Below are positions 7,405 to 61,932 of a DNA stretch of 64,000 nucleotides, in pieces; within the stretch, counting starts at the first letter, position 1; each line of letters begins with the position of its first letter. The notes beneath the pieces were generated by a model. The model made no database searches and was not told the DNA's origin. It saw only the letters and a list, made by a program, of their open reading frames with translations. The position numbers and the translations under genes were made by a program. The DNA lies in NCBI GenBank assembly GCA_036489885.1, contig DASXEW010000003.1, forward strand, positions 1,860,001-1,924,000, written 5' to 3'. This DNA comes from Candidatus Baltobacteraceae bacterium. GTDB lineage: Bacteria; Vulcanimicrobiota; Vulcanimicrobiia; Vulcanimicrobiales; Vulcanimicrobiaceae.

Positions 7405-8190
7405 ATGCGAGTCTTTCTCGTCGGCGCTATTTGCGTGGGAATCTTGCTCCATCTCACCACTCCAAGCAAGGCGCAAGCACCGCGGAACTCACTGGCGCAG
7501 CAATATGGCGTTGTCTTGCGCTCGTTCAATGCGAGCCTCACGCCGCCGGTTGCGATCGACATAGCGCAGCATGTTCTGCTGCTGGCATCCTATTATAGTC
7601 TGGATCCGCGACTGCTCGTCGCGATCGTCGGCGTCGAGTCCGGTTGGCATACACATGCCGTCTCGCCGTCGGGTGCGCAGGGGCTCGGACAACTCATGCC
7701 TGCAACCGCCGACGGTCTGTCCGTGCAAGCGTTCGAGAAATACGAGAACCTCGACGGCACCGCGCGTTACATTCGGCGTTTGCTCAACGAGTACGCGAAG
7801 CTTCCGCTCGAGCGTCGTTACTCGCTCGCAATTGCAGGTTACAATGCGGGCCCGGATGCGGTGCGGCGCTTCGGCGGCGTCCCACCTTACGCCGAAACGC
7901 AAGCCTATGTAGTTCACGTCCTCGGCCTATGGCGTCAGCTTCGAACCCAACTGCCCGCGTTTGCGCCGGCGATCCCGGTGCTCGTAAGGGCACACGCTCC
8001 CGCGATTGCCGTCAAGCATCTGGTACCGCCGGCAACGGCGACGACGAGCGTCAGCGTTGCAGCGTTCCCTCCGATCGACGCGCAAGCGCTCGGTGCGCGT
8101 GAGCGTCACGAGCTCGAAGGCGATGCGGTGTTGCCGCGGCCGAAAAAGACGATTGGGCGCTGGCTCGCGAGGGCCTTAGGAGTCCACTAG
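7405..8190 (+). CDS. lytic transglycosylase (SLT domain) with signal peptide
   Basis: 261 residues from ATG 7405; the frame is open much further upstream, but that part runs antisense through the tRNA and ATPase genes. Residues 1-25 form a signal peptide ending near SKAQA. The SLT domain covers about residues 50-170, with the catalytic glutamate in GVESGWHTHAVSPSGAQG, followed by GLGQLMPATA and the AGYNAGPDAV motif. It cleaves peptidoglycan glycan strands in the periplasm, leaving 1,6-anhydro ends. The C-terminal 80 residues are low-complexity Ala/Val/Pro with no known fold. No operon partner is evident. Confidence 0.9.
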   Translation: MRVFLVGAICVGILLHLTTPSKAQAPRNSLAQQYGVVLRSFNASLTPPVAIDIAQHVLLLASYYSLDPRLLVAIVGVESGWHTHAVSPSGAQGLGQLMPATADGLSVQAFEKYENLDGTARYIRRLLNEYAKLPLERRYSLAIAGYNAGPDAVRRFGGVPPYAETQAYVVHVLGLWRQLRTQLPAFAPAIPVLVRAHAPAIAVKHLVPPATATTSVSVAAFPPIDAQALGARERHELEGDAVLPRPKKTIGRWLARALGVH

Positions 8191-8214
8191 CTCGGCGCGA
8201 ATGCCGCCGGAGAG

Positions 8215-9423: not shown

Positions 9424-9713
9424 ATCCGTTTTTTCAGAAATTTGTTGCGATGCTCGTCGACGAGGCAAACGCACGCGGCGCCGGTATCGACGCTCCCACG
9501 ATGGACGACCGTACGGCAAAGGACCTGCTCGACCTCGCGCGCGTCGTTGCGCACTCGCAGGAGCGGCGCTTTGCACCGTTGGCATGCTACCTAGCCGGCG
9601 TCGCAATTGCGACGATACGCGTGAAGCAGCCACAGCTCGATATCGGCGATTATGTCAAAGCGCTTCGCGTTGCGCTTGAACCACAAGAGGACTCAGGTAG
9701 CAATCCCGTGTAG
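9420..9713 (+). CDS. DUF6457-like small protein
   Basis: 97 residues, all helical by composition. The core LLDLARVVAHSQERRFAPLACYLAG matches the DUF6457 pattern (LDLAR.VAH..ER..AP...FLAG), a family often found beside molybdenum-enzyme and cofactor genes. That fits here, where a molybdopterin oxidoreductase lies two genes downstream. It overlaps the CoA-transferase stop as ATGA and is followed 8 nt later by the ferredoxin-NrfD gene. Possibly an assembly or maturation factor, but no function is established. Confidence 0.6.
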   Translation: MNPFFQKFVAMLVDEANARGAGIDAPTMDDRTAKDLLDLARVVAHSQERRFAPLACYLAGVAIATIRVKQPQLDIGDYVKALRVALEPQEDSGSNPV

Positions 9714-9721
9714 GACGCGCA

Positions 9722-11242: not shown

Positions 11243-14082
11243 GCGACGAAACGTTCTATCAGGGCCCTAGCCGGACGCATCTGGCGTCGTTTCCACCCAA
11301 AGAGCGCTGGAACGACTGGGTCGAGATCGAGTCCAAGGCCTGGCCGCAGCGCGAAGAGCACCATTATTCGCTCGTTCCGACAACGTGCTTCAATTGCGAA
11401 TCGGCGTGCGGACTGCTGGCGTACATCGATAAAGAGACGGGCGAGATCCGCAAGTTTGAAGGCAATCCCGAACATCCGGGTTCGCGCGGACGAAATTGCG
11501 CAAAGGGCCCGGCAACGATCAATCAAGTCAAAGACGTTGATAGAATCGCGTTTCCGCTCAAGCGTGCCGGCGAACGTGGCGACGGTAAATGGGTGCAGGT
11601 TGGTTGGGATGAGGCGCTCGACGACATCGCCGCCCGCATTCGCCGTGCAATCGTCGAAGAGCGCGAGAACGAGATCATGTATCACGTGGGCCGTCCAGGC
11701 GAGGACGGTTACACCGAACGCGTCATGGGCGCATGGGGCATCGACGGACACAACTCCCACACGAATATCTGCAGCTCGGCAGCTCGCGCCGGCTATGCGT
11801 TCTGGATGGGTATCGATCGTCCCAGCCCCGATCACGCAAATGCGGACGTCATCTTCCTCATAAGCTCGCATCTCGAAGCCGGGCATTATTTCAATCCGCA
11901 CGCGCAGCGAATCATTGAGGCAAAGGCGGCCGGCGCGAAGATCATCGTATTCGACATTCGCCTATCGAACACGGCGACACACGCCGACCATTGGCTCGCC
12001 CCGCAACCTGGGAGCGAGGCCGCGATTCTGCTCGCCATGGCGCGCAATCTGGTCGAGACGGGACGCTACAATCGTGAGTTCGTGCGTCGCTGGTGGAACT
12101 GGGATGAATATCTTGCGAACGAGCGGCCGGAACTTCCGCGCACGTTCGAAAGCTTCGAGAAGGCGTTCCTCGAGCTGTATTCTGATTTCACGTTTGAGTA
12201 TGCGGCCCAAGAAGCCGGCGTCGCCATCGACCAGTTGCGCACGATTACTGATGTCGTCGCCGGCGCTGGTACGCGGCTGTCGAGCCACAATTGGCGCTCC
12301 GCAGCGGCCGGGCATCTTGGCGGTTGGCAAGTATCGCGCACGCTCTTCCTTTTAAATGCGCTCATGGGTGCAGTTGCGACCGAGGGCGGCGTCTATCCGA
12401 ATGCGTGGAACAAGTTCGTTCCGAAGCCCATTCACGCGACGCCGCATCCGAAGCGTTGGAACAACGTAACGTGGCCTGAGCAATATCCTCTAGCCTATCA
12501 CGAGATGTCGTTCTTGTTGCCGCATTTGCTGCGAGACCAGAACCGCAAACTCGACGTTTACTTCACGCGCGTCTACAACCCCGTTTGGACGAATCCGGAT
12601 GGTATGTCGTGGATCGAGATGTTCAAGGAGACCGGTCGAATCGGCTTGCACGTCGCGCTGACGCCGACGTGGAGCGAAACCGCGTATTTCGCGGACTACG
12701 TCTTACCGATGGGTCTCGGTCCGGAACGTCACGATATTCATTCGTACGAAACGCACGACGCCCAGTGGCTCGGATTCCGTCAACCCGTCGTACGGACGGC
12801 GCGCGAACGCGACGGCGAAAAATTCACCGACACCCGCGACGCCAACCCCGGTCAAGTTTGGGAAGAGAACGAGTTTTGGATCGAGATGTCGTGGCGCATC
12901 GATCCCGACGGCAAGCTCGGCATCCGCAAGTACTTCGAATCGAAGAAGAAGCCTGGAGAGAAGCTGACGCTCGATGAGTACTACGGTTTTATATTCGAGA
13001 ACTCTGTGCCCGGATTGCCGGAACGTGCCGCTGCAGAAAATTTGACGCCGCTTGCATTCATGCGTAAGTACGGGGCCTTCGAAGTTGCACGCAATATCGG
13101 TGCGCAGCACGAGATCTCCGTACCGCAAAGCGAGCTCGAAGACGTCGCGGTCTCGGAATTAGGGCGCGTCTACACGCGCGCCGCGAAGCCAGCGCCTGAA
13201 AACATCGTTCCGCTTCCCGCGCCCGACGACGATCCGGATGGACGCCGCCCCGTAGGCGTGCAGGTCGATGGTCAAATCCTGCGCGGCTGGCCGACGCCGA
13301 GCGGTAAGCTCGAATTCTATTCCTCGACGCTTGCGACATGGGGTTGGCGCGAATACGCGACGCCGCAGTACATCAAGAGTCACGTTCATCCCGATAACCT
13401 GAAGCCCGGGCAGATGGTGCTCAATCCGATTTTCCGTTTGCCGACGCAGATTCACACGCGCAGCGCAAATGCGAAATGGCTCGACGAGCTCGCGCACGTC
13501 AATCCGCTGTGGATCAATCCGATCGATGCAGAAAAGCTTGGCGGGATCACGACGGGCGATCTCGTCCGCATCACGACCGAGATCGGTTACTTCGTGCTCA
13601 AGGCGTGGGTGACGGAGGGGATTCGTCCGGGAGTCGTTGCTTGCAGTCACCACATGGGCCGTTGGAAGGTGGGTGAGACCGGTCAACGGCAGATGGCTGC
13701 GACGGTCGGTCTCGATCGAGACGAATCGCGCTGGAGCATGCGACGCAAAGCGGGCATCTCGCCATTTAAGTCGGACGATCCCGACACGCAGCGCATTTGG
13801 TGGACCGACGTCGGCGTTCATCAGAATCTGACATTCTGCGTGCAGCCAGACCCGATTTCGGGGATGCACTGTTGGCACCAAGCCGTTACCGTCGAGCGGG
13901 CGCAACCCGGCGACGCGTACGGCAACGTGTTCGTCGATACCGAAAAGAGTCGCGCGGCCTACACGAAATGGAAAGCGATGACGCGCCCCGCCAGCCGCTA
14001 TTCGCCCAACGCGACGCGACGCCCGTGGTGGTTCCTTCGTCCACTGCGTCCGAGCCGTAACGAATACAAACTCCCCGTTTGA
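11239..14082 (+). CDS. molybdopterin oxidoreductase catalytic subunit (DMSO-reductase superfamily)
   Basis: 947 residues from ATG 11239, which overlaps the previous stop (ATGA). Cys50, Cys53, Cys57 and Cys87 (CFNCESAC ... RGRNC) bind one [4Fe-4S] cluster. Cys178 in NICSSAARAGYAFW aligns with the Mo-ligand cysteine of NapA-type enzymes. The C-terminal dinucleotide-binding domain runs from about residue 730 (FRLPTQIHTRSANAKWLDE). There is no twin-arginine signal, so it is cytoplasmic, unlike PsrA or DmsA. With the fused ferredoxin-NrfD partner it makes a quinone-linked oxidoreductase. The substrate is unknown; sulfur oxyanion, nitrate-like and formate-like roles are all possible. Confidence 0.9.
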   Translation: MSDETFYQGPSRTHLASFPPKERWNDWVEIESKAWPQREEHHYSLVPTTCFNCESACGLLAYIDKETGEIRKFEGNPEHPGSRGRNCAKGPATINQVKDVDRIAFPLKRAGERGDGKWVQVGWDEALDDIAARIRRAIVEERENEIMYHVGRPGEDGYTERVMGAWGIDGHNSHTNICSSAARAGYAFWMGIDRPSPDHANADVIFLISSHLEAGHYFNPHAQRIIEAKAAGAKIIVFDIRLSNTATHADHWLAPQPGSEAAILLAMARNLVETGRYNREFVRRWWNWDEYLANERPELPRTFESFEKAFLELYSDFTFEYAAQEAGVAIDQLRTITDVVAGAGTRLSSHNWRSAAAGHLGGWQVSRTLFLLNALMGAVATEGGVYPNAWNKFVPKPIHATPHPKRWNNVTWPEQYPLAYHEMSFLLPHLLRDQNRKLDVYFTRVYNPVWTNPDGMSWIEMFKETGRIGLHVALTPTWSETAYFADYVLPMGLGPERHDIHSYETHDAQWLGFRQPVVRTARERDGEKFTDTRDANPGQVWEENEFWIEMSWRIDPDGKLGIRKYFESKKKPGEKLTLDEYYGFIFENSVPGLPERAAAENLTPLAFMRKYGAFEVARNIGAQHEISVPQSELEDVAVSELGRVYTRAAKPAPENIVPLPAPDDDPDGRRPVGVQVDGQILRGWPTPSGKLEFYSSTLATWGWREYATPQYIKSHVHPDNLKPGQMVLNPIFRLPTQIHTRSANAKWLDELAHVNPLWINPIDAEKLGGITTGDLVRITTEIGYFVLKAWVTEGIRPGVVACSHHMGRWKVGETGQRQMAATVGLDRDESRWSMRRKAGISPFKSDDPDTQRIWWTDVGVHQNLTFCVQPDPISGMHCWHQAVTVERAQPGDAYGNVFVDTEKSRAAYTKWKAMTRPASRYSPNATRRPWWFLRPLRPSRNEYKLPV

Positions 14083-15851: not shown

Positions 15852-17279
15852 ATGGCACTGGCAGTTGAACAACGTAGCGATGCGGCGACGATCGTTGCCA
15901 AGCTGATTGCGCGTGGGCGCGAAGCCCAGCTCGCGATTCGTGACTACACGCAAGAGCAAACGAATCAGCTTGTGACCGCGGTCGCATGGGCGTGTTACAA
16001 GCCCGAGAACGCCGAGCGCTTAGCGCGGCTTGCAATCGAAGATACGGGTCTTGGCCGTTACGAGCACAAGGTCATCAAAAATCAGCGCAAGACGTTCGGC
16101 ACGCTGCGCGACTTGCTCGATCCGGGCGCGATATCGGTCGGTGTCATGCGCGAGGATCGCGAGCTGGGACTAACGTTGATCGCAAAGCCGGTTGGTGTCG
16201 TCGCGGCGGTCTGCCCGTCGACGAATCCGTCCGCGACCCCGATCAACAAAACGATGATGATCATCAAGGGACGCAACGCGACGATTCTTGCGCCCTCGCC
16301 GAAAGGCGCGACCACATGCGAGCTCGTCGTAGAACTCGTGCACGAGCAACTGCGTAAGCTCGGCGCTCCCTTGGACCTCGTGCAGATGTTGCCGCAGCCG
16401 ATCTCAAAAGAGCTCACGCACGAGCTGATGCGGCAAGCCGACGTCGTGGTAGCGACCGGTTCGCAAAACAACGTTCGCGCAGCATATTCATCCGGGACAC
16501 CGGCGCTCGGCGTCGGCGCCGGAAACACACCGGCGATCATCGATGAGACGGCCGATCTCGATGATGCAGCAGCCAAGATCAAATTGAGCAAGTGTTTCGA
16601 CTACGCGACGAGCTGTTCGTCCGAGAACTCCGTTTTGATTCCGTCCGCCCGCTACGCGCAAACGATCGATGCGTTGCGGCGGCAAGGCGGCTACTTGCTT
16701 GATGCCAAGCAAAAAGCGCAGCTCGAAAAGGTAATGTTCCCCGGCGGCAAGCTTAGTCAGAAGATCGTTGCGCAATCACCGAAGACAATCGCGGAAGTTG
16801 CGGGCTTCGAAGATCCCGCGACACACACGGCTGAGTTCTTTATGGTCGAGGAGACCGGCGTAGGCGACGAGTTCCCATTCTCGGGCGAAAAGCTCTCGGT
16901 CGTGCTCACCGTGTACCGCTACGATACCTTCGACGACGCGGTCGATCTGGTCGGACGCATCTTGCGCTACAGCGGGATGGGTCACTCGGTAGCGATTCAT
17001 ACCAAAACCTCGGAGCGCGCGGCGCGTCTCGCCCACGAGCTCGACGTCGTTCGCGTTCTCGTCAATCAACCGCACAGTTTCAACAACGGCGGTGGATTCG
17101 ACAACGGTCTGAATTTCACGTTGACGATGGGCTGCGGTTCATGGGCAAAGAACAGCATCAGCGAAAATCTCTCGTACAAACACTTCCTCAACACGACACA
17201 TCTCGTGCGGCAAATCCCCGAACGTAAGCCGACTGAAGAAGCGCTGTTCGGTTCGTATTGGAAGCGCTTTGGTCGGTGA
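15852..17279 (+). CDS. sauS: CoA-acylating sulfoacetaldehyde dehydrogenase (SauS-like)
   Basis: 475 residues of the acylating aldehyde dehydrogenase family, with catalytic Cys255 in YATSCSSENS, the NAD-binding region near VGVVAAVCPSTNPSATPINK and the C-terminal NFTLTMGCGSW segment. SauS reduces sulfoacetyl-CoA with NAD(P)H to sulfoacetaldehyde. Plain acetaldehyde or propionaldehyde dehydrogenases share the fold, so the assignment rests on context: the same operon encodes an ADP-forming CoA ligase, sulfoacetaldehyde acetyltransferase and phosphate acetyltransferase. It is the first gene after the candidate promoter. No microcompartment targeting peptide or shell genes are present. Confidence 0.8.
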   Translation: MALAVEQRSDAATIVAKLIARGREAQLAIRDYTQEQTNQLVTAVAWACYKPENAERLARLAIEDTGLGRYEHKVIKNQRKTFGTLRDLLDPGAISVGVMREDRELGLTLIAKPVGVVAAVCPSTNPSATPINKTMMIIKGRNATILAPSPKGATTCELVVELVHEQLRKLGAPLDLVQMLPQPISKELTHELMRQADVVVATGSQNNVRAAYSSGTPALGVGAGNTPAIIDETADLDDAAAKIKLSKCFDYATSCSSENSVLIPSARYAQTIDALRRQGGYLLDAKQKAQLEKVMFPGGKLSQKIVAQSPKTIAEVAGFEDPATHTAEFFMVEETGVGDEFPFSGEKLSVVLTVYRYDTFDDAVDLVGRILRYSGMGHSVAIHTKTSERAARLAHELDVVRVLVNQPHSFNNGGGFDNGLNFTLTMGCGSWAKNSISENLSYKHFLNTTHLVRQIPERKPTEEALFGSYWKRFGR

Positions 17280-17340
17280 CGGACCGAGCGTAGTGGGATC
17301 GTGCATTAGCGACAGGGTTGTTGCGAGGTCGGCTTGGGGG

Positions 17341-17359
17341 CCCCATGCGCAGCATGGGG
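17341..17359 (+). promoter_or_regulatory. intra-operon hairpin before the ligase beta-subunit gene
   Basis: CCCCATGC (17341-17348) pairs perfectly with GCATGGGG (17352-17359) around a 3-nt loop, 31 nt before the GTG at 17391. GGGGCCCC overlaps its 5' edge. There is no T-run, so it is not a clean terminator. It could adjust RNA stability or translation between the dehydrogenase and ligase cistrons. Confidence 0.4.
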
Positions 17360-17390
17360 AGTGCGGAGCCTGGGGCGGAGCACCTTTGAA

Positions 17391-18515
17391 GTGAACGTCC
17401 CTGAATACATCGCGAAGTCGTTGCTTCGCGACGCGGGCATCGTCACGCCGGACGGCGAGGTGGCGCGTGATGCACGTGCTGCAGCCGACCACGCTCGCAA
17501 GCTCGGCGGACGTGTCGCAATCAAGGCGCAAATCCCGGCCGGCAAACGTGGCAAATCGGGCGGAATCGCTTTTGCTGAAACCCCGGAAGAAGCGGAGGCC
17601 AAGGCGGCGGCGCTCATCGGTCGCGAGGTAGCCGGACATCGCGTCGATGAGGTCTTGATCGAGTCCGCGGCCGACATCGAGCGCGAGCTTTACGTCGCGA
17701 TTCTCAACGACGGCTCGAGTCGCGGACCACTGCTGCTCTTTTCGCGCGAGGGCGGCATCGAGATCGAGGAGCAGGGCGAAACGATCGTTCGCCGGGCACT
17801 CGACGTTCGAACTGGTTTGGATGCCGCGACTGCGCGCGAGATCGCGGGCGACGACGCACTCGCAGAGCTGATGCAAAAGATGTACGAACGCTTCATCGCG
17901 CTCGACTGCGAGCTGCTCGAGATCAATCCGCTTGCGCGCGAGCGTTCCGGCCGTTATATCGCTCTCGATTGCAAGATGACGCTTGACGATTCGGCGCGCC
18001 CACGTCAAAAAGAGCTATTCGCGCGCATCGAGACTGCAACGGGTCCGCTCGGGACGACGCTCGAACAACGCGCGCGCGCCGCGAGTCTGTATTTTATCGA
18101 GCTGGACGGCGAGGTCGGCGTGCTTGCGAACGGCGCAGGCTTGACGATGACGACGCTGGATGCCGTACATCTGCACGGTGGAAAGCCGGCGAACTTCCTC
18201 GAGATCGGCGGCGAAGCTTACACGAAGGCAACGGTTGCGCTCGAGCTCGTTCTCTCGAACCCGCGTGTGCGTAGTGTTCTGGTCAATTTCTGCGGCGCGT
18301 TTGCGCGCACCGACGTTATGGCCGAGGGCGTCGCGCAGGCCTACGAAACGCTGCGGCCGAGCGTCCCGTTCTTCTTTTCGATTCACGGCACCGGAGAAGA
18401 GCGCGCGATCGAGATCGTTCGCGAGCGCTTAGGGATCGAGCCGTTCGCGCTGATGGATGACGCCGTCAAGGCCGCGATTGCTGCCGCGCGTGAGCCGGCG
18501 GGAGTACGCGCATGA
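17391..18515 (+). CDS. ADP-forming acyl-CoA ligase beta subunit (SucC fold, SauC-like)
   Basis: 374 residues. GTG 17391 is chosen because VNVPEYIAKSLLRDAGI matches the start of SucC (MNIHEYQAKEIL); the frame extends upstream without family similarity. It has an N-terminal ATP-grasp domain (IKAQIPAGKRGKSGG, EINPLA near residue 170) and a C-terminal ligase domain (ANFLEIGGEAYTKA). With the alpha subunit it would activate an organic acid with ATP and CoA. Between SauS and Xsc the expected substrate is sulfoacetate, replacing the single-chain AMP-forming SauT ligase. Malate or another dicarboxylate cannot be excluded. It overlaps the alpha gene by 4 nt. Confidence 0.82.
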   Translation: MNVPEYIAKSLLRDAGIVTPDGEVARDARAAADHARKLGGRVAIKAQIPAGKRGKSGGIAFAETPEEAEAKAAALIGREVAGHRVDEVLIESAADIERELYVAILNDGSSRGPLLLFSREGGIEIEEQGETIVRRALDVRTGLDAATAREIAGDDALAELMQKMYERFIALDCELLEINPLARERSGRYIALDCKMTLDDSARPRQKELFARIETATGPLGTTLEQRARAASLYFIELDGEVGVLANGAGLTMTTLDAVHLHGGKPANFLEIGGEAYTKATVALELVLSNPRVRSVLVNFCGAFARTDVMAEGVAQAYETLRPSVPFFFSIHGTGEERAIEIVRERLGIEPFALMDDAVKAAIAAAREPAGVRA

Positions 18516-19393
18516 TTCTGCGTCGGGATCAAACCGTGCTCGTTCAAGGCATCACGGGAAAACAAGCCTCCTTTTGGACCGAAAAAATGCTTGCTTGCGG
18601 AACGAGGATCGTTGCCGGCTCGAGCCCGGGAAAAGGCGGCAACAATGTATTCGGTATTCCGGTGTACGATTCGGCAGTCGCAGCCGCTGCAACGCACTCG
18701 ATCGACTGCACGGTGCTCTTCACGCCGCCGATGGCAACGAAGCTCGCAGTCTTCGATGCGCTCGAGGCTGGGATTCGCAATCTCGTCGTGCTGGCGGAGC
18801 ATGTTCCCGTGCACGACGTGATGGAGTTCGTTGCTGCCGCAAAAGGCGTTGGCGCGCAGCTCGTTGGTCCGAATACTGCTGGCGTCGTGACGCCCGGCGA
18901 ATGCGCGGTCGGCATCATGCCCGGCTTCGCGGAGAATATTTTTCAGCCAGGTTCGGTTGGTGTGATCTCGCGCAGCGGAAGTCTGGGCACGCTGATTTGC
19001 CTCGACATCGTGCGCGCCGGCTTCGGCGAATCGGCGTTTCTCGGCATCGGCGGCGATCCGGTGCTCGGGACGACGACCGCGGATGCATTGCGTATCTTCG
19101 ACGGCGACGCGAAAACCAAAGCTGTCGTCATCGTTGGCGAGCTTGGCGGCACAATGGAAGAAGAGGCCGCCGAATATGCTGCGCAAACAAAGATGTCGTC
19201 GCGCAAGCCGATCGTCGCGTTCATTGCGGGCCGCAGCGCGCCGCCCGGAAGACGAATGGGACATGCCGGCGCTATTGTTATAGGTTCGCGCGGAAGCGGT
19301 GAATCGAAAGTTCGGGCGCTGCGCGACGCAGGTGCAACGGTCCTTGATACACCATCCGACATAGGGTCGGTTCTTCGCAACGTTCTCTCGTGA
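18512..19393 (+). CDS. ADP-forming acyl-CoA ligase alpha subunit (SucD fold, SauD-like)
   Basis: 293 residues. The Rossmann CoA-binding domain includes VQGITGKQASFWTEKM and VLAEHVPVHDVMEF. The phosphohistidine is His251 in GRRMGHAGAI, the hallmark of SucD-type subunits, and the phosphate-binding stretch ISRSGSLGT is intact. The protein pairs with the 17391-18515 subunit through an ATGA overlap. It forms the acyl-phosphate and CoA thioester. A housekeeping succinyl-CoA synthetase would not normally sit next to xsc, so a catabolic role with sulfoacetate or a related acid is likely. Confidence 0.83.
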   Translation: MILRRDQTVLVQGITGKQASFWTEKMLACGTRIVAGSSPGKGGNNVFGIPVYDSAVAAAATHSIDCTVLFTPPMATKLAVFDALEAGIRNLVVLAEHVPVHDVMEFVAAAKGVGAQLVGPNTAGVVTPGECAVGIMPGFAENIFQPGSVGVISRSGSLGTLICLDIVRAGFGESAFLGIGGDPVLGTTTADALRIFDGDAKTKAVVIVGELGGTMEEEAAEYAAQTKMSSRKPIVAFIAGRSAPPGRRMGHAGAIVIGSRGSGESKVRALRDAGATVLDTPSDIGSVLRNVLS

Positions 19394-19404
19394 GAGGTAA
19401 CTAG

Positions 19405-21171
19405 ATGGCCATCGAAACTCGTCCCAAACCCGACGTCAAGTCCGCGGGCTACTCGCGGCCGCTCTCACGGATGACGCCGAGCGAAGCGTTCGTTGAAACG
19501 TTGCGTGCGGAAGGCGTCACGCTTGCACCGGGAATCGTCGGATCGGCGTACATGGATGCGCTCGATCTCTTCCCGGCAGCCGGCATTCGCTTCTTGCCCG
19601 TCGCGCACGAACAAAACGCCGTCCACATGGCCGACGGTTGGGGACGCATGACTGGGCGCCCGACGATCGCAATCGCGCAGAACGGTCCCGGCATCACGAA
19701 CTTCGTCACTGCTGTTGCGGCAGCGTATTGGGCGCACACGCCAATGGTCGTCGTAACGCCGTCTGTCGGTTCGGCGAGTACGGGTCTTGGTGGATTCCAA
19801 GAAGCCGAGCAGATGTCGATTTTCTCGAAGATGACAAAATGGCAAGTGCAGGTCAACCGGCCGGATCGTATGGCCGAGCTGTTGCGCCGCGCGTTCTATA
19901 TTGCGAAGGCCGAAAACGGCCCCGTACAAATCGACATTCCGCGCGATTATTTCTACGGTGAAGTCGAAACCGAGATCTATCCGTCACTCACCCTCGAGCG
20001 CGGCCAAGGTCCGGATGATGCCCTCGAGGCCGCCGCGCGGATGCTCGTCGAGGCAAAGAATCCGCTGATCGTGTGCGGCGGCGGCGTCGTGCAAGCCGGC
20101 GGCGGCGATGAAGCCCGCGCGCTCGCGGAATTTCTGTGCGTCCCTGTAGCCAACTCATATCTGCACAACGATTCCTTCCCGGCCGGTCACGAGCTGGCGG
20201 TAGGGCCGCTCGGCTATTGCGGTTCTAAAGCGGCAATGCAGCTGATTTCGGAAGCCGACGTCGTGCTGGCACTCGGATGCCGTCTGAATCCGTTCGGAAC
20301 GACGCCGCAATACGGCTTCGACTACTGGCCGAAAAATGCGAAGATCATTCAGATCGACGCGGATGCTCGTACGCTCGGTTTGACCAAGAAGATCGCGATC
20401 GGCATTTGCGCCGATGCAAAGGCGGCGGCGGGACGGCTGCTCGAGCACGCACGAAATCTCGACGGCGGACGCCGCCGCAACGAAGCGACGCTCAAAAAGA
20501 TTGCGGACGCGAAGAAATCCTGGACCGACGAGCTCGCGAAGCTCTCATCAAAGACCGGCGAGCCGATTAGTCCGCGTCACGCCCTCAAGCTCGTCACCGA
20601 AGCGCTTCCGAAGGATTGCGTTGTCACGACCGATATCGGCAACATCTCCTCGGTCTCGAACAGCTATCTGCGGTTTGATAATCCACGCCGCTTCCTGGCC
20701 GCGATGAGTTTTGGAAACTGCGGCTACTCGTATCCCACGGCGCTCGGCGCCAAGCTTGCGCGTCCGGACCTTCCGGTCGTCGCATTCATCGGCGACGGTG
20801 CCTGGGGAATGAGTCTTCCCGAAGTGATGACCGCGGTTCGCGAAAACATCCCTGTCGTTGCGATCGTGTGGAACAACGCGCAGTGGGGCGCCGAGAAGAA
20901 GAACCAGGTCGACTACTACGGTGACCGGTTCGTCGGCACCAATCTGAAGAATCCAGACTTCGCCGAAGTTGCGCGTGCGATGGGTGCGCAGGGCATCAAG
21001 GTCGATAAGGCGTCGGAGATCGGCAATGCGGTGAAAACCGCGGTTGACAGCGGTAAACCGACCGTTATCAATCTCGTGGTCGACTCCGTCGAGCTCGCCG
21101 AACCGTTCCGGCGCGATGCGCTCAAGAAGCCCGTTCGTATGCTCGATGTCTATAAACACCTTACGGGCTGA
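19405..21171 (+). CDS. xsc: sulfoacetaldehyde acetyltransferase (Xsc)
   Basis: 588 residues, a ThDP-dependent enzyme that converts sulfoacetaldehyde and phosphate to acetyl phosphate and sulfite. Recognised from near-identity of long stretches to known Xsc proteins, for example MTPSEAFVETLRAEGVT, FLPVAHEQNAVHMADG (catalytic Glu69), IPRDYFYGE, NSYLHNDSFPAGHE and GNISSVSNSYLRF. The ThDP-Mg motif GDGAWGMS...WNNAQWG is intact. Gene order ligase-ligase-xsc-pta fits complete dissimilation of a C2 sulfonate. The sulfite made must be exported or oxidised, and no sulfite dehydrogenase or TauE-like exporter is visible in this window. Confidence 0.93.
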   Translation: MAIETRPKPDVKSAGYSRPLSRMTPSEAFVETLRAEGVTLAPGIVGSAYMDALDLFPAAGIRFLPVAHEQNAVHMADGWGRMTGRPTIAIAQNGPGITNFVTAVAAAYWAHTPMVVVTPSVGSASTGLGGFQEAEQMSIFSKMTKWQVQVNRPDRMAELLRRAFYIAKAENGPVQIDIPRDYFYGEVETEIYPSLTLERGQGPDDALEAAARMLVEAKNPLIVCGGGVVQAGGGDEARALAEFLCVPVANSYLHNDSFPAGHELAVGPLGYCGSKAAMQLISEADVVLALGCRLNPFGTTPQYGFDYWPKNAKIIQIDADARTLGLTKKIAIGICADAKAAAGRLLEHARNLDGGRRRNEATLKKIADAKKSWTDELAKLSSKTGEPISPRHALKLVTEALPKDCVVTTDIGNISSVSNSYLRFDNPRRFLAAMSFGNCGYSYPTALGAKLARPDLPVVAFIGDGAWGMSLPEVMTAVRENIPVVAIVWNNAQWGAEKKNQVDYYGDRFVGTNLKNPDFAEVARAMGAQGIKVDKASEIGNAVKTAVDSGKPTVINLVVDSVELAEPFRRDALKKPVRMLDVYKHLTG

Positions 21172-22084
21172 GTTCGGGCATCTCGAAAATATGATGGCAG
21201 CCGTGCGCGCACGTAAATGTCCGCGCACGGTTGCGGTCGTTCAGCCGGTCAGCAGCTACGCGCTCGCTGCGGTACTGCGGGCAACGGAAGAAGGCTTCGT
21301 TCGTCCATTGCTGGTCGGCGATGAAACGCGGATTCGCAAGCTCGCGGCCGATGAAGGCTTGCGTCTTGACGATGCGCAGATCGTGGGTGCAGATACTGAC
21401 GCGGATGCTGCGGAGCGTGCCGTCGCCCTCGTTCGAAGCGGCGACGCCGAGATGCTGATGAAAGGGCACATTCACACCGACGATTTTCTTCGTCCGACGC
21501 TTAACCGCGAAGGCGGCTTGCGAACGGATCGGACGATGAGTCACATCTTCGTATGCTATCTGCCGCAACAGATCTATCCGAAGGCACTATTGGTGACCGA
21601 CGCCGCCTTTAACATCGCGCCGAACTTGGCGGCAAAACGCGCGATTGTCGAAAATGCAATCGCGCTCGCGCACGCGCTCGGCGTGGCTGTGCCGAAAGTC
21701 GCTGTGCTCGCCGCAACCGAAGAAGTAAATTCTGCGATGCCTGCGACGGTCGACGCACGTGCGCTGCGCGACATGAATCGCGGCGGTGAGATCACAGGCG
21801 CCATCGTCGACGGCCCGTTTGCGTTTGACAACGCGCTCTCTGCCAAAGCGGCGAAGACGAAAGGGATCGACTCTCCTGTTTGCGGCGATCCGGATATCCT
21901 CGTCGTGCCGACGATCGAAGCCGGCAACATGCTCTATAAGGAGATGGTGCACTTCTGCGGAGCGATTACGCCCGGAATCGTTCTCGGTGCTACAGCACCG
22001 ATTCTTCTCACGTCACGTGCTGATCCACTCGAAGCGCGGCTCGCATCTTGCGCGCTAGCCGCAGCCTATTTGGACGCTGCGTGA
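21146..22084 (+). CDS. pta: phosphate acetyltransferase (Pta/Ptb fold)
   Basis: 312 residues from ATG 21146, overlapping xsc by 26 nt; an alternative ATG lies at 21191. The PTA/PTB fold shows MLMKGHIHTDDFLRP, HIFVCYLP, LVTDAAFNIAPN and GDPDILVVPTIEAGNMLYK, closer to phosphate butyryltransferase than to the long Pta of enterics. It converts acetyl phosphate from Xsc plus CoA to acetyl-CoA, closing the sulfonate route. A compact Pta directly after xsc is the usual arrangement in taurine and sulfoacetate degraders, which supports the assignment. Confidence 0.88.
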   Translation: MSINTLRAEFGHLENMMAAVRARKCPRTVAVVQPVSSYALAAVLRATEEGFVRPLLVGDETRIRKLAADEGLRLDDAQIVGADTDADAAERAVALVRSGDAEMLMKGHIHTDDFLRPTLNREGGLRTDRTMSHIFVCYLPQQIYPKALLVTDAAFNIAPNLAAKRAIVENAIALAHALGVAVPKVAVLAATEEVNSAMPATVDARALRDMNRGGEITGAIVDGPFAFDNALSAKAAKTKGIDSPVCGDPDILVVPTIEAGNMLYKEMVHFCGAITPGIVLGATAPILLTSRADPLEARLASCALAAAYLDAA

Positions 22085-53678: not shown

Positions 53679-55006
53679 CGAGCCCACCACTTGGGGAGCT
53701 CAAGGCCAAGCTCGGGTCGATCATCGATGCACACGCGCAATCTTTGACCCATTTCGGCAACGATGTTTTTGCGCATCCGGAGATAGGTTTTCGCGAGGAA
53801 CGGACCTCTGCGCGGATTGCAGAGGCGCTACGGCGGCTCGATCTTACCGTCGAAGAGGGTTTGGCGCTGACCGGCGTGCGCGCGCGCTTGCGTCTTGGGA
53901 AACCCGGCCCGACGGTTTGCGTAATGGGCGAGCTCGACGGATTGCCGGTCCCCGGACATCCGAATGCCGATCCGGCGACGGGAGTCGCACACGCTTGCGG
54001 ACACAATGCGCAGCTCGCGCATCTTCTCGGCGTCGCAACCGCGCTCGTCGAAAGTGACGCAGCCGCGCATCTTGCCGGTGAGATCGTTTTTCTCGCGGTT
54101 CCCGCCGAAGAATACGTCGATTTGGAATGGCGCACCGATCTCGCGCGCCGCGGAAAGGTCGAGTTTCTCGGCGGCAAGCCCGAACTGCTGAAGGACGGCG
54201 TCTTCGATGACATCGACCTCGCAATGATGGTGCACGCGTCCGGCACGCCAAACGGCAATCTGCTTTCGACGACCTGGAACTACAATGGGTTTGTCGCGAA
54301 GCAAGCCCGCTTCATTGGACGAGCCGCTCACGCGGGCAATGCACCCTATCGCGGGATCAACGCGCTCAACGCGGCGGTGCTGGCGATGCAAGCCATGCAC
54401 ATGCAGCGCGAGACGTTTCGGGACGAGGACCACATACGCGTTCATCCGATCATTACGCGCGGCGGCGATGCAATCAACGTCGTTCCCGCCGACGTGCGCT
54501 TGGAGACGTTCGTTCGGGGTGCGTCGCTCGAAGCGATCGACGAGGCGGCGGAAAAAATCGATCGTTCCTTGCACGCGGGCGCCCTCGCGCTCGGGGCCGC
54601 CGTCGAGATACGAACGCTGTCGGGATATCTTCCGCTCTCCGTCAATCGCGAGCTTGGTGAGGTGTTTCGCGAAAATGCGGTCGAGCTGGTCGGATCCGCA
54701 CGCTATGGCGAGTCACCCACCAATTCGGCCTCGACAGATGCGGGCGACCTCTGTCACGTGATGCCGGTGCTCCATCCGAACCATGGGGGTTGCAGCGGCG
54801 CGAATCACACCGTCGATTTTCGGATCGTCGATCCGATCGATGCCTACATCACGCCCGCGAAGGCGATGGCGCACACGCTGGTGGACTTGTTGTCCGGCGA
54901 CGCGGAACGCGCGAAGAGCGTCATCGCCGGATTCAAACCGAAGCTCACGCGCGACGAATATCTTGCAAAGATGCGCGCGCTCAACAGGACGGAGCGGTTT
55001 CCCTAA
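53672..55006 (+). CDS. M20-family amidohydrolase (AbgB-like)
   Basis: 444 residues from ATG 53672. Metallopeptidase fold with HPEIGFREERTSARIAEAL, the metal site in GVAHACGHNAQLAHLLGVA and the glutamate base in AVPAEEYVD. The lid-domain motif GRAAHAGNAPYRGINALNAA and the region TDAGDLCHVMPVLHPN are typical of AbgB-like p-aminobenzoyl-glutamate or N-acyl-amino-acid hydrolases. Cytoplasmic. Coupled to the gamma-glutamyltransferase gene; the pair may process gamma-glutamyl or acyl amides. Confidence 0.9.
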   Translation: MLASPPLGELKAKLGSIIDAHAQSLTHFGNDVFAHPEIGFREERTSARIAEALRRLDLTVEEGLALTGVRARLRLGKPGPTVCVMGELDGLPVPGHPNADPATGVAHACGHNAQLAHLLGVATALVESDAAAHLAGEIVFLAVPAEEYVDLEWRTDLARRGKVEFLGGKPELLKDGVFDDIDLAMMVHASGTPNGNLLSTTWNYNGFVAKQARFIGRAAHAGNAPYRGINALNAAVLAMQAMHMQRETFRDEDHIRVHPIITRGGDAINVVPADVRLETFVRGASLEAIDEAAEKIDRSLHAGALALGAAVEIRTLSGYLPLSVNRELGEVFRENAVELVGSARYGESPTNSASTDAGDLCHVMPVLHPNHGGCSGANHTVDFRIVDPIDAYITPAKAMAHTLVDLLSGDAERAKSVIAGFKPKLTRDEYLAKMRALNRTERFP

Positions 55007-55881
55007 CCTTTCTTGCCGTTGCGCACATAGGTGTAGAGCGCAGTCCAGTCCTCACGGCCGCGCCCATCTTTACGTGCAGCATCATAAATCGGACGGGCCG
55101 CGGCTGCGGTCGGAACGTCGAGACCGACTTCACGCGCAAGATCGAGCGCCAGTCCGAGATCCTTATAGGCAAGATCGATTGCGAAGCCGGGTGTGCTATC
55201 GCCACGCAATACCTTGGCCGGATACGTCGTCGACATGTGGCCTTGCCCGGCAGTAGTCCCTAACATCACGGAGAGCGCGATATCGGGGTTCAAGCCGCTG
55301 CGTTCGGCCAGCGTCAGCGCCTCGGCCGTCGTCACATTGAGCGTAACCGACATGAAATTGTTGACGATCTTCATGCGCGAGCCCATGCCGGGCGGTCCGC
55401 AATGAATGATCGTATCACCCATTCGCTCGAGGATGGGACGCACGCGCTCGAGTGCAGCCGGCGTTGCGCCGGCCATGATCAGGAGCTTTCCGTCGGCTGC
55501 GTGTTGCGGTGAACGGCCGACGGGGGCATCGACCATCTCGATTCCGCGTTTCTGCAAGGCTGCGATAAAGCGGTCGGTTGCCGACGGCGCAATCGTACTC
55601 ATATCGATGTAGATGGCCGATTGCGGCAGCGTGCTTGCAATGCCGTTGGCACCGAGCAGCGCATCCTCTACCTGCGGCGAGTCGGGAACCATCGTGATCG
55701 CGACGTCGGCGTCACGCGCGGCCTCTGCCGGCGTCGCGGCCGCGACGGCGCCGTCGCCGACGAGTTTTGCTACAGCCTGGGGGTTTGTATCATACGCGCG
55801 TACCGCGTATCCGGCACGCACGAGATTGCGCGCCATCGGTCCGCCCATCGTACCGAGTCCGACGAATGCGATTTTCTGCAT
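55003..55881 (-). CDS. beta-hydroxyacid dehydrogenase with 3-sulfolactaldehyde reductase (YihU) signature
   Basis: 292 residues. NAD(P) site GLGTMGGPMARNL (residues 8-20) and catalytic Lys171. Between the two, DAPVGRSPQHAADG replaces the usual DAPVSGG of 3-hydroxyisobutyrate and tartronate-semialdehyde enzymes. Arg123, Asn174 and Ser178 occupy the same positions as the sulfonate-binding residues I recall for E. coli YihU, and the C-terminal KDLGLALDLAREVG to GRGREDW region also follows YihU. This points to reduction of 3-sulfolactaldehyde to 2,3-dihydroxypropanesulfonate, or another sulfonated aldehyde. No other sulfoglycolysis gene adjoins it, so specificity is unproven. Confidence 0.82.
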   Translation of the reverse strand: MQKIAFVGLGTMGGPMARNLVRAGYAVRAYDTNPQAVAKLVGDGAVAAATPAEAARDADVAITMVPDSPQVEDALLGANGIASTLPQSAIYIDMSTIAPSATDRFIAALQKRGIEMVDAPVGRSPQHAADGKLLIMAGATPAALERVRPILERMGDTIIHCGPPGMGSRMKIVNNFMSVTLNVTTAEALTLAERSGLNPDIALSVMLGTTAGQGHMSTTYPAKVLRGDSTPGFAIDLAYKDLGLALDLAREVGLDVPTAAAARPIYDAARKDGRGREDWTALYTYVRNGKKG

Positions 55882-55903: not shown

Positions 55904-56941
55904 TTATTGTGCCGCCTGCGGCGAGGGCAAGAAGCTCACGCCAAGCCCGCAGACACCTGCCCATACCAGCGCTCCGCCGAGTAAAGGAGGATCGAACCAA
56001 ACGCCTCCCGTCGCGAGCGTCACTACAAAATATGCACCGTAATACGCGACCGGGATGACGAAACCGAAGGCATGCAGCCACCGTCCCGCAAGCGGCAAGG
56101 TTGGGGAGCGCGCGATGATCGCGTCGGCTGTGATTCCGGCCGCAAGCGACATTACGATGTACGTGAGCAGCATCGGCGTATCGTTCGTGAGCGCGGCGGC
56201 GATGATGCAGTTACCGAGCACGAAGAAGATCGTCATTGCGCCGGGGCGCAGTCGAAATCGTGTCGCAAGCCAGACCGCAAAGAGCATAACGATCAGCGTT
56301 TGCAAGATGATTACCGCCACGCCAGTGCCGGTTTTGTATAAGAACAGCGTGGTGTTCGTGAAGTAGTCCGGTGAGTAGACAATGGCATCCGGCGGTGTGT
56401 ACATCCGCGCAGCCGACGGATCGAACGCGTATGCCATTCCGAGGTGCACGAACTCGATCCAGGTTGCCAGCGAGAAAATCAACGGCAGTTGGGACCACAG
56501 CGTCCGTAGATCGGAGCGCGATTCGAGCGCAGAGAGAATCGGGGCGCTCGTTACGGTAAGGACACCGATTCCAATAATCAGGTGCGTTGGACTCGTCACC
56601 GCGTCGACGCGGTCCTCGATACCAAAAATCGTATGCCAGATCAGATCGCCGACGCCCCCGATGAAGAAGATCGGGACGCCGACGAGCGCGATTTGATATG
56701 CCTTGGGGACGAGATTCCAGCCGTGAAAGCCCTGCGCGCGATTTCTGAGTGCCGCCACGCCCAGGACGGCTGCGCCCGCGACCATCGCGGCGTAGAAGAT
56801 TGCGTGATACGGCGTGAAGAAGGTCTCCACCGGAACGTGCAAATGCGCCCAGGAATCCCAAAGAAAACCACTGGCCAGCCAAAGGCCGATGACGCTGATC
56901 GCGAGATCCAGCGTCGCGTTGCGCGGCGGCGCAATCGACAT
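55904..56941 (-). CDS. polytopic membrane protein of unknown function
   Basis: 345 residues with about nine hydrophobic helices. Conserved-looking polar positions within helices include HLHVPVETFFTPYHAIFYAA, GVGDLIWHTIFGIEDRVDAV, SPTHLIIGIG and WIEFVHLGMAYAF; several His/Glu/Asp lie near the membrane and could bind a metal or proton. No transporter family is recognised. It starts on the minus strand just where a small plus-strand lipoprotein frame begins. It lies 22 nt upstream of the YihU-like reductase gene on the same strand and may be co-transcribed with it. Confidence 0.75.
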   Translation of the reverse strand: MSIAPPRNATLDLAISVIGLWLASGFLWDSWAHLHVPVETFFTPYHAIFYAAMVAGAAVLGVAALRNRAQGFHGWNLVPKAYQIALVGVPIFFIGGVGDLIWHTIFGIEDRVDAVTSPTHLIIGIGVLTVTSAPILSALESRSDLRTLWSQLPLIFSLATWIEFVHLGMAYAFDPSAARMYTPPDAIVYSPDYFTNTTLFLYKTGTGVAVIILQTLIVMLFAVWLATRFRLRPGAMTIFFVLGNCIIAAALTNDTPMLLTYIVMSLAAGITADAIIARSPTLPLAGRWLHAFGFVIPVAYYGAYFVVTLATGGVWFDPPLLGGALVWAGVCGLGVSFLPSPQAAQ

Positions 56942-57416: not shown

Positions 57417-58472
57417 TCAGAGCGCCGCGGCGATGGCTTTGCCGACGTCCTCGGTGCTGGCCGTTCCGCCGATGTCGCGTGTTCGCGGACCGCTTTGGAG
57501 CACTTTCTCGATCGCCTGCACGATCGCGTTCGCCGCATCGGGATAACCGAGATGCTCGAGCATCATCGCGCCCGACCAGATTTGACCGATCGGATTGGCG
57601 ATGCGCTTTCCGGCGATGTCGGGTGCCGATCCGTGCACCGGTTCGAACATCGATGGAAACTCGCGCTCCGGATTGAGATTCGCGGACGGCGCAATACCGA
57701 TCGTTCCGGTGACGGCAGGTCCGAGATCTGAAAGAATGTCGCCGAACAGATTCGAGCCGACGACGACATCGAACCAGTCAGGATGCTGAACGAAATGGGC
57801 GGTGAGGATGTCGACGTGATATTGATCGGTTTTCACGTCGGGATAATTCTGCGCCATCGCCCGCACGCGCTCGTCCCAGTACGGCATCGTAATCGTGATG
57901 CCATTCGATTTCGTTGCCGACGTCAGATGTTTTTTGGGCCGGCTGCGTGCAAGCTCGTACGAGAACCGCAAGATCCGGTCGACGCCGCGCCGCGTGAAGA
58001 CGGATTCTTGCACGACGAGCTCGTCGTCGGTGCCCTCGTTGAGACGTCCGCCGATCGATGAATATTCGCCCTCGTTGTTTTCACGCACGATCCAGAAGTC
58101 GATGTCGCCGGTCTTGCGGTTGGCGAGCGGTGATTCGATTCCGGGCATGAGACGGACGGGCCGCAAATTGGCATATTGCCGAAACGCGCGGCGGATCGGG
58201 ATGAGCAAGCCCCACAGCGAGACATGATCGGGGACGCTCGGCCATCCGACCGCGCCTAAGAAGATCGCGTCATGATGCGCGATGCGGGCCAGACCATCGT
58301 CCGGCATCATCTTGCCGGTCGCCGCGAAGACCTCGCAGCTCCACGGGAACGCGTCCCACTCGAACGTGATCCCGGCTTTCTTGGCCGCCTCGTCGACGAC
58401 GCGAATGCCCTCGGGGACAACTTCCTTGCCGATGCCGTCGCCGGCGATCGTCGCGATTCGGTACGATTTCAC
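57417..58472 (-). CDS. dmlA: D-malate / tartrate dehydrogenase (decarboxylating)
   Basis: 351 residues of the isocitrate/isopropylmalate dehydrogenase family. Matches DmlA/TtuC closely: IAGDGIGKEVVPEGIRV, GAVGWPSVPDHVSLWG, ANLRPVRLMPGIESPLANRK, RENNEGEYSS and SANLNPEREFPSMFEPVHGS. It oxidises D-malate to pyruvate and CO2, and can act on L-tartrate, with NAD+. It diverges from a GntR regulator at 58537, a likely control gene, in a 64-nt intergenic region. I did not find a matching tartrate or D-malate importer next to it. Confidence 0.93.
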   Translation of the reverse strand: MKSYRIATIAGDGIGKEVVPEGIRVVDEAAKKAGITFEWDAFPWSCEVFAATGKMMPDDGLARIAHHDAIFLGAVGWPSVPDHVSLWGLLIPIRRAFRQYANLRPVRLMPGIESPLANRKTGDIDFWIVRENNEGEYSSIGGRLNEGTDDELVVQESVFTRRGVDRILRFSYELARSRPKKHLTSATKSNGITITMPYWDERVRAMAQNYPDVKTDQYHVDILTAHFVQHPDWFDVVVGSNLFGDILSDLGPAVTGTIGIAPSANLNPEREFPSMFEPVHGSAPDIAGKRIANPIGQIWSGAMMLEHLGYPDAANAIVQAIEKVLQSGPRTRDIGGTASTEDVGKAIAAAL

Positions 58473-60374: not shown

Positions 60375-60841
60375 TCTTCGAGGAAGCGGGCGATCTCGGG
60401 TTGTGCGCGCAGCTCGCGCAACTCGTCGTCGTTGGGGAGTTGAGGATGGTCGCGTTCGCTAGGGACAAGACACAAGAATCCCATCGGTTCGTCGTCGCCG
60501 GCGCGAAATTGATGCCACGTCATCGGCGGTACGCGAAAGAGATCGAATTGGTGGATCGGATGGATCTCCGTTCCGAGCAGCGCTTCGCCGCCACCACGTA
60601 AGATCATGACGGCGTGAACGTGCTCGTGCCGTTCCAGGGTTGTATGTCCGCCGGCGCCGACCTCGAAATATCGCCACTGATAGCCAAGCTCGGCTTCTTC
60701 GAAGAGTACCGAGCGCGTTACGTCCTTGAACGGGGCGCTGCCCTCTTCTTTATATTGGAGTACGTCAACGCTCTGCCACCGGTAGTGCTCGCCCTCCGGG
60801 CGGAACGTCCGTGCGTGACGTGCCTCGCTCGTCTCTCTCAT
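60371..60841 (-). CDS. cupin-domain protein
   Basis: 156 residues from ATG 60841; the frame is open upstream but there overlaps the RuBisCO-like gene. One cupin barrel with metal motif 1 in GGHTTLERHEHVHAVMILRG (two His-x-His-type ligands and Glu) and motif 2 in HPIHQFDLFRVPPMTWHQFR. A metal-dependent isomerase, decarboxylase or sensor is possible. It overlaps the RuBisCO-like stop as ATGA, so the two are made together and may catalyse consecutive steps. Convergent with the P1-peptidase gene, 4-nt overlap. Confidence 0.85.
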   Translation of the reverse strand: MRETSEARHARTFRPEGEHYRWQSVDVLQYKEEGSAPFKDVTRSVLFEEAELGYQWRYFEVGAGGHTTLERHEHVHAVMILRGGGEALLGTEIHPIHQFDLFRVPPMTWHQFRAGDDEPMGFLCLVPSERDHPQLPNDDELRELRAQPEIARFLED

Positions 60842-61932
60842 ACGCCCTGCACAACCGCCCGGGCGAAGCTTCGGCTTCGTTCCGCAAGACGGTCCCCGGC
60901 CGAAAGCAAGCTGCCTCCGATCAGCAGCATAACCTCCGTGCCGTAGAACGCAATCATTTCCGGGACTCGCTCGACCGCCATGCCACCGGCCGGTACCGGC
61001 ATTGCGGGCCGAATCGTATGCCACGGTTCGCGGGCTGCCTGCGCGAGCGCTCGGCAGACGTCTGCACTGTAGGCGAATCGGCCGCCGTAGTTCGGATAGA
61101 TCGTCGCATCCGCGCCGAGCAGCCGGAAGAATTTTCCGAAGAGCCAGACCGGTGAGATGCGCGAAGCGCCGCCGAACGCCGGATGCGCGAGAATGACAAA
61201 GTCCGGGAACGTCGCCACGAATTCCGCGAACGTCCCCAGACCAATCAGCATCGGTGCAAGGAGCACGGCGCGTACCCCGCACTCTCGGGCGTGTTCCGCT
61301 TGCTCGAAGATGCGTCGCGGAGAGCCGACCAGACTGGGAGCGTAGATGACCGGCTTTCCCGTGGCGTCCGAGGCGCGCTCGGCCGCAGCATAACAGGCGC
61401 GGACACGTTCGGTGAACGGCGCGTAGGCTTGATCCGCGATGCCGTGGTCGTCCTTGATCACGTCGATCCCGGCGCGTCCGAAGGTTTCGCAGAGCTCCGC
61501 GAGCGCCTGGGGCGACGACCCCTGCGGTTTGAGGGCCGTACACGTCAGCGGACGCTTCGGTGCTTGGACGAGCGCGCGCAATCCGCTGATCCCGTGACGC
61601 GGTCCGCCGAAACGTTTGAGCAGCTCGGGCGGGAATGCGACGTCCTCGAGCTCGACGTCATCTTGCAGCGAGCAATTTCCGAAGAGCATATTGGTTAGCT
61701 GCGTCACATCTTCGCCCGTCGTCGCGGCGGCGATCTGCAAGGTGACGCGGTGTCGCTCTGCATCGAGCGGTTCGATCGACGCGACGCGCGCCACGATCGA
61801 ATCGCGAATCTTCGGATCGGCGACGGCTTCGAGCGGCATCTCGACGCTTTGCTCCAGCGCAAGCGCCGCCGCGCGTTTGTGGACCTCGTCCGCGCGAGAC
61901 GCGAGCAAATACGTCGCAGAAACCCAAGCCAT
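60838..61932 (-). CDS. RuBisCO-like protein (form IV)
   Basis: 364 residues. The TIM-barrel shows Lys135 in LKPQG (RuBisCO Lys175 position; Lys177 is Gln), Lys160 in IKDDHGIADQ (the carbamylated Lys201 position), Asp162 and His163 (Glu204 replaced by His), His250 in LAHPAFGG and the C-terminal phosphate-binding IGGSLL. These changes exclude CO2 fixation. The KDDH form belongs to the RLP groups tied to apionate, isoapionate or other sugar-acid catabolism rather than to methionine salvage (MtnW). It is coupled to a cupin gene. No MtnA/B/C/D gene is nearby. Confidence 0.88.
   Translation of the reverse strand: MAWVSATYLLASRADEVHKRAAALALEQSVEMPLEAVADPKIRDSIVARVASIEPLDAERHRVTLQIAAATTGEDVTQLTNMLFGNCSLQDDVELEDVAFPPELLKRFGGPRHGISGLRALVQAPKRPLTCTALKPQGSSPQALAELCETFGRAGIDVIKDDHGIADQAYAPFTERVRACYAAAERASDATGKPVIYAPSLVGSPRRIFEQAEHARECGVRAVLLAPMLIGLGTFAEFVATFPDFVILAHPAFGGASRISPVWLFGKFFRLLGADATIYPNYGGRFAYSADVCRALAQAAREPWHTIRPAMPVPAGGMAVERVPEMIAFYGTEVMLLIGGSLLSAGDRLAERSRSFARAVVQGV

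Follow-up and report, generated by a model that had tools for sequence, protein, structure and literature searches.

The window, that is, the whole 64,000-nucleotide stretch of DNA analyzed here, carries a YihU-like gene with no sulfoquinovose gene near it, and the question raised by this locus is which aldehyde its product acts on and in which direction. The open reading frame (55003 to 55881, minus strand) starts with ATG and runs uninterrupted for 292 codons. Its 292-residue product, a putative NAD-dependent sulfolactaldehyde reductase/dihydroxypropanesulfonate dehydrogenase, scored 381.2 bits against NF012005, the NCBIfam equivalog model for sulfolactaldehyde 3-reductase (cut-off, 348). 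All other NCBIfam models of the family left it under their own cut-offs, for instance, the GarR/GlxR models TIGR01505 (256.5 versus 340.8), NF008592 (238.8 versus 397), and NF011633 (159.5 versus 451), the 3-hydroxyisobutyrate dehydrogenase (HIBADH) model TIGR01692 (230.3 versus 291.6), and NF043037 for the L-threonate dehydrogenase LtnD (201.8 versus 350). In a phmmer search of the PDB, the first match was Escherichia coli YihU (6SM7, 2e-88), compared with 9e-60 for tartronate semialdehyde reductase, and pairwise alignment with K-12 YihU (NP_418318, from NC_000913) gave 144 identities in 298 columns.

A preliminary description of this DNA had placed the YihU residues R123, K171, N174, and S178 at the same residue numbers in the window protein, and all four indeed coincide in the pairwise alignment with K-12 YihU. 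Sulfonate-binding roles are assigned to them here after that description and the YihU structures. K171 (codon 55369 to 55371), the catalytic lysine of the family, and N174 are found in all 90 aligned family members; being invariant across the whole superfamily sample, they are uninformative here. R123 (codon 55513 to 55515) lies in the segment DAPVGRS (residues 118 to 124; 55510 to 55530), which replaces the usual DAPVSGG, as had been noted, and S178, the YihU-clade residue, closes the motif NNFMS (55348 to 55362; N174 at 55360 to 55362, S178 at 55348 to 55350). R123 occurs in 72 and S178 in 33 of the 90 sequences, and 27 have both: 21 YihU proteins from sulfo-EMP operons, the proteins of loci L049, L069, L070, L071, and L104, and the window protein. 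In terms of sequence, then, the informative signature is R123 combined with S178, with the proviso that one or the other is missing from some YihU-clade members; R123 was present in none of the seven paralogues checked in the same genome. The dinucleotide-binding motif GLGTMG (residues 8 to 13; 55843 to 55860) occupies invariant or nearly invariant columns.

An AlphaFold model built with 42 homologues reached a pLDDT of 96 (47 from the single sequence). Its top Foldseek hit was 6SM7, and the first three hits by E value were all YihU structures. The YihU structures gave a TM-score of only 0.7 with an rmsd of 14, suggesting that the domains are arranged differently in the crystal, whereas GarR-type structures superpose as a whole on the model at a TM-score of 0.9. 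The fold is therefore not discriminating, and it is the sequence and the residues that separate the candidates. GarR/GlxR, LtnD, and HIBADH share the fold and the catalytic lysine with the window protein, but they form separate clades, and GarR has SGG in place of GRS and a glutamine in place of N175.

The phylogeny was examined with IQ-TREE on 45 rows that included K-12 YihU, GarR, GlxR, LtnD, and six paralogues from the same genome. The window protein fell within an 18-row YihU clade (support, 98/96), with the Acidiphilium iwatense protein of locus L049 as its sister (support, 100/99; 57% identity), and GarR and GlxR formed a separate clade with two of the paralogues. A 90-row tree was concordant, with a 36-row YihU clade at a support of 97. 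The preliminary description had named grouping with glyoxylate/succinic semialdehyde reductases as the outcome that would speak against its assignment; with respect to the GarR, GlxR, and LtnD references in the tree, no such grouping was seen. Judged by its sequence, the window protein is most likely a true relative of E. coli YihU; its enzyme family is known, but the setting of its gene is unusual. Among 149 genomes of the phylum, only the genome of the window has a protein over the NF012005 cut-off, and the same holds at E values below 1e-70. Since the gene is the sole one of its kind there, it was probably acquired horizontally from another bacterium; its GC content (0.62) is like that of its surroundings (0.60), so the transfer would not be very recent.

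It is improbable, in our estimate, that the enzyme is an ordinary β-hydroxyacid dehydrogenase whose substrate carries no sulfonate group (tartronate semialdehyde, γ-hydroxybutyrate, or 3-hydroxyisobutyrate), perhaps tied to a tartrate-dehydrogenase-like gene. The family is promiscuous, and a tartrate dehydrogenase family gene (57417 to 58472, minus strand; TIGR02089, 569 versus 470 bits) is found 1.5 kb upstream in the same orientation; however, the family-model scores and the tree both place the protein with YihU, the linkage is weak because a membrane-protein gene and an opposite-strand ORF stand between the two genes, and their association is not conserved in other genomes. The membrane-protein gene (55904 to 56941, minus strand) lies 22 bp upstream of the reductase gene, with which it may be co-transcribed; the 345-residue product has no Pfam or NCBIfam match. 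Apart from isolated weak matches, no conserved synteny with the window neighbors was found among 89 related loci. Further along, a gene for a RuBisCO-like protein of 364 residues (60838 to 61932, minus strand; PF00016) adjoins a cupin gene, and its best NCBIfam match is MtnW (167 versus 409 bits).

Other sulfonate genes are present in the window, as the preliminary description had pointed out. The sulfoacetaldehyde acetyltransferase gene xsc (19405 to 21171, plus strand; TIGR03457, 816.9 versus 676.4 bits) and the acylating sulfoacetaldehyde dehydrogenase gene sauS (15852 to 17279, plus strand; NF047625, 740 versus 600 bits) both scored above their cut-offs and lie 34 to 39 kb away, in agreement with the roughly 35 kb given earlier. 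Between them are two-subunit succinyl-CoA-ligase-like genes (17334 to 19393, plus strand) that, from their position, may encode a SauCD-like ADP-forming sulfoacetate-CoA ligase. With a phosphate acyltransferase-type gene, they form a single row (15852 to 22084, plus strand) that looks like a complete route from sulfoacetate to acetyl-CoA of the SauCD/SauS/Xsc kind. The importer described near 4.7 kb is likewise SsuABC-like (5672 to 7188, minus strand; permease, 5672 to 6424; ATPase, 6421 to 7188; substrate-binding protein-like frame at about 4.7 to 5.7 kb), with 46% (SsuB) and about 25% (SsuC) identity to the other SsuABC of the genome.

The preliminary description had suggested that the reductase may act on a different sulfonated aldehyde. 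Such a substrate could be sulfoacetaldehyde, reduced to isethionate in a side branch of the sauS/xsc cluster; with Xsc and SauS both encoded in the window, sulfoacetaldehyde is to be expected as an intermediate, and a sister clade of YihU-like proteins occurs with ComDE-like genes. We nevertheless regard this idea as quite improbable: 34 kb and many unrelated genes separate the reductase from sauS/xsc, and the active-site signature of the window protein, VGR(S/T), NNMS, and GxGH, is that of YihU and not that of the ComDE-linked sister clade (VGRLA, A178, NGQ). The YihU-type signature therefore makes the C3 pair of 3-sulfolactaldehyde (SLA) and 2,3-dihydroxypropane-1-sulfonate (DHPS) the best guess for the substrate, and the departure from YihU is likelier to be one of direction, namely, DHPS oxidation. 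A functional tie to xsc and sauS would require a step from sulfolactate to sulfopyruvate and the ComDE-like pair encoded elsewhere in the genome, on contig 1 at C1:86.5-87.6 kb (L153, C1:79000-95000, 7461 to 8599, minus strand). This two-subunit TPP enzyme scored 154.7 bits (cut-off, 221.5), and its ComD-like protein is 50% identical to the ComD-like proteins that accompany the sister clade in other bacteria. The pair adjoins succinate dehydrogenase genes. In the sister clade (L041, L043, L085, L088, L089, L091, and L107), ComDE-like TPP enzymes recur, several of the loci also having an aldehyde dehydrogenase.

The contexts of related genes in other bacteria bear on the direction. Within the 36-row YihU clade, 21 members lie inside sulfo-EMP operons and 15 outside, and 10 of these 15 have neighbors expected for DHPS/sulfolactate catabolism: TRAP importers, aldehyde dehydrogenases (ALDHs) of the SSADH/SLADH type, TauE exporters, or an enolase-superfamily gene. 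Another feature among the 15 is a GarD/SuyB-like gene 8 kb away in L086. The enolase-superfamily gene, referred to here as MR_MLE, encodes a protein like that of structure 3DDM. At the Acidiphilium iwatense locus (L049), MR_MLE and a GntR gene are divergent from the YihU-like gene, an ALDH gene, and an MFS transporter gene, and MR_MLE is likewise divergent from the YihU-like gene in a Deinococcales metagenome-assembled genome (L067) from another phylum, Deinococcota; the Deinococcales MR_MLE is just 31 to 39% identical to other MR_MLEs. At L042, L079, L086, L121, L070, and L143, YihU-clade or MR_MLE genes occur with an SDH-like flavoprotein, a two-subunit fumarase, and/or TauE, a pattern resembling the sulfofucose-induced “fumarate and tartrate” cluster of Paracoccus wurundjeri (PMC12421959). 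At L063, L066, L090, and L096 (Pararhizobium, SAR116, Rhodovarius), a DUF3604 protein of about 760 residues is encoded next to genes of the YihU family, and three of these loci also have TRAP importers.

The genome of the window has an MR_MLE of its own (C3:945360-946493), 54% identical to that of Acidiphilium and 970 kb from the window gene. It is divergent, across a 5-bp gap, from an SsuABC importer at C3:946.5-949 kb (L136, C3:936000-955900, 9358 to 13056), whose binding protein belongs to the SsuA family (139 bits, slightly below the cut-off of 163.5). The description of the reductase gene as stand-alone thus holds inside the window, where it has no sulfoquinovose gene beside it, but not for the genome as a whole, in which the homologue of its Acidiphilium neighbor adjoins SsuABC. 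At a distance of 970 kb, the YihU-like gene and MR_MLE need not act together. MR_MLE is found in 2 of the 149 genomes of the phylum, of which only that of the window also has a YihU-like gene; in the other (G004), it stands without a YihU-like gene and without sulfur context.

The catalytic set of MR_MLE (K167/K169, D197, E223, E250, and D273-H300) is conserved in all 10 homologues aligned, and the protein has the features of the mandelate-racemase subgroup (Lys-x-Lys, three acidic metal ligands, and an Asp-His dyad), the metal ligands being assigned after mandelate racemase. Among plasmids, the subfamily is discrete, with 16 records at 42 to 56% and nothing else down to an E value of 1e-45. 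Its neighbors vary. In Variovorax and Bradyrhizobium they are SsuABC, GntR, and a GMC alcohol dehydrogenase; in Shinella, Sinorhizobium, Neorhizobium, and Rhizobium, a sugar ABC importer, a kinase, a LacD-type aldolase, an SDR, and a TSUP exporter, with SSADH in most; in Sulfitobacter, TctABC, TauE, and fumarase/SDH-like genes; and in Paracoccus seriniphilus, GMC, TRAP, and SSADH. An IlvD-type dehydratase accompanied by TctABC is also found, in Salipiger together with an HpcH-type aldolase. No SuyB-like gene was detected in the MR_MLE neighborhoods examined by a probe that did detect such genes in L086 and L115. The upstream schemes thus differ (DHPS oxidation, sulfo-EMP-like, sulfo-ED-like, and direct import) and would converge at sulfolactate. 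Loss of sulfite from sulfolactate by β-elimination, once the C2 proton has been abstracted, would be ordinary chemistry for the enolase superfamily. Judging from these gene contexts, MR_MLE may be a sulfite-releasing sulfolactate lyase. It could instead be a sulfolactate racemase or a sulfosugar-acid dehydratase, because SfcF, a sulfosugar-acid dehydratase, shares its Pfam pair, PF13378/PF02746 (PMC12421959). Neither a published role for 3DDM nor an enolase-superfamily sulfolactate lyase was found in the openly accessible literature.

The relationship to SfcF also bears on direction. If MR_MLE were an SfcF-like dehydratase feeding an SLA-forming aldolase, the window enzyme could work reductively as YihU does, turning SLA derived from a sulfosugar into DHPS for export. 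The intact YihU signature, the shared Pfam pair, and an SDR gene that adjoins MR_MLE and the YihU-like gene in L067 are in keeping with this reading. It is rather unlikely, however, in view of the surrounding genes: neither the Acidiphilium locus nor the vicinity of the MR_MLE in this genome has an aldolase, lactonase, or sugar dehydrogenase gene, and the Salipiger MR_MLE is already accompanied by the IlvD-type dehydratase and the aldolase. Also against this reading, no homologue of YihS or YihQ was found in the genome by a search run without a positive control for either query, in line with the earlier remark that no sulfoquinovose gene is adjacent, and the window gene thus lies neither in a sulfo-EMP operon nor in a genome with recognizable YihS and YihQ. 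The SuyB/altronate dehydratase family (PF04295) is absent from the genome and was found in five control genomes; the histidinol-dehydrogenase family is represented by a single gene, with no second, HpsN-type paralogue. Consequently, a sulfo-EMP pathway, SuyAB, and an HpsN-type paralogue are all unsupported here.

The oxidative direction fits best because a YihU-clade enzyme, SsuABC, and MR_MLE occur in one genome that gave no match to the sulfoquinovose genes searched for. On sequence and gene-context evidence, we favor, with a probability of about 0.55, an NAD-dependent SLA/DHPS oxidoreductase of the YihU clade that works mainly oxidatively, with either MR_MLE or a sulfopyruvate/ComDE-like/Xsc route downstream. 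The window enzyme would interconvert SLA and DHPS, with the sulfonate held by R123, N174, and S178 and with K171 as the catalytic lysine. DHPS would be imported, possibly via the SsuABC at C3:946.5-949 kb, and oxidized to SLA by the window enzyme; one of the aldehyde dehydrogenases of the genome would then form sulfolactate, although the genome has no clear orthologue of the Acidiphilium ALDH among its several generic ALDHs (best, 37%). In the least certain step, MR_MLE would abstract the C2 proton of sulfolactate and by β-elimination yield pyruvate and sulfite. Alternatively, sulfolactate would be converted to sulfopyruvate, which the ComDE-like pair and the window Xsc would process further.

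There is precedent for such a direction. DhpA of Desulfovibrio sp. strain DF1, a YihU homologue that bears the annotation 3-hydroxyisobutyrate dehydrogenase, oxidizes DHPS to SLA with NAD+; the SSADH-like SlaB then forms sulfolactate, SuyAB releases sulfite, and an SsuA-type binding protein is induced (PMC6278857). YihU itself is reversible on DHPS (PMC6278857). The window enzyme would, like DhpA, act mainly in the oxidative direction in vivo, and the two proteins share the COG2084 family. DhpA is set apart by its published description: it is 27% identical to YihU (PMC6278857), whereas the window protein is about 50% identical, and strain DF1 uses SuyAB, of the family absent from the genome studied here. 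The parts of a DhpA-type set (a YihU-family DHPS dehydrogenase, an SLA dehydrogenase, and a sulfonate ABC importer) are present in this genome but unlinked, rather than in one locus. With E. coli YihU (6SM7/6SMY/6SMZ), which is its best structural hit, the window protein shares about 50% identity over the full length, the four residues, the GxGH loop, and the clade; it differs in lying outside a sulfo-EMP operon and in having closest relatives that come in part from non-sulfoglycolytic loci, and its direction is probably reversed. The DHPS dehydrogenases HpsN, HpsO, and HpsP of Roseobacteraceae and Cupriavidus (PMC11131964) carry out the step proposed here for the window enzyme, on the same substrate, but belong to different protein families. 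Similarly, SuyAB, the (R)-sulfolactate sulfolyase, catalyzes the reaction proposed from gene context for the 3DDM-like protein, sulfolactate to pyruvate and sulfite, but SuyAB is of the altronate-dehydratase type and the 3DDM-like protein of the mandelate-racemase type, two unrelated families.

Both DHPS and sulfolactate are organic sulfur compounds of environmental importance, and the literature cited here names no sulfolactate sulfolyase other than SuyAB. We raise, as a tentative idea only, that a C3-sulfonate route has gone unnoticed, in which a YihU-clade or GMC dehydrogenase and an ALDH make sulfolactate and MR_MLE, instead of SuyAB, splits it into sulfite and pyruvate. The dehydrogenase of such a route, with its genes scattered over the genome, would be the product of the window gene. 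If so, surveys limited to HpsN/O/P and SuyAB would miss DHPS degraders in several phyla, and a function would be gained for a branch of the enolase superfamily whose solved structure, 3DDM, is named in the PDB only as a “putative mandelate racemase/muconate lactonizing enzyme.” A protein that carries the equivalog label sulfolactaldehyde 3-reductase need not belong to sulfoglycolysis, and the main interest of the finding is the lead that it gives to a candidate enolase-superfamily sulfolactate lyase.
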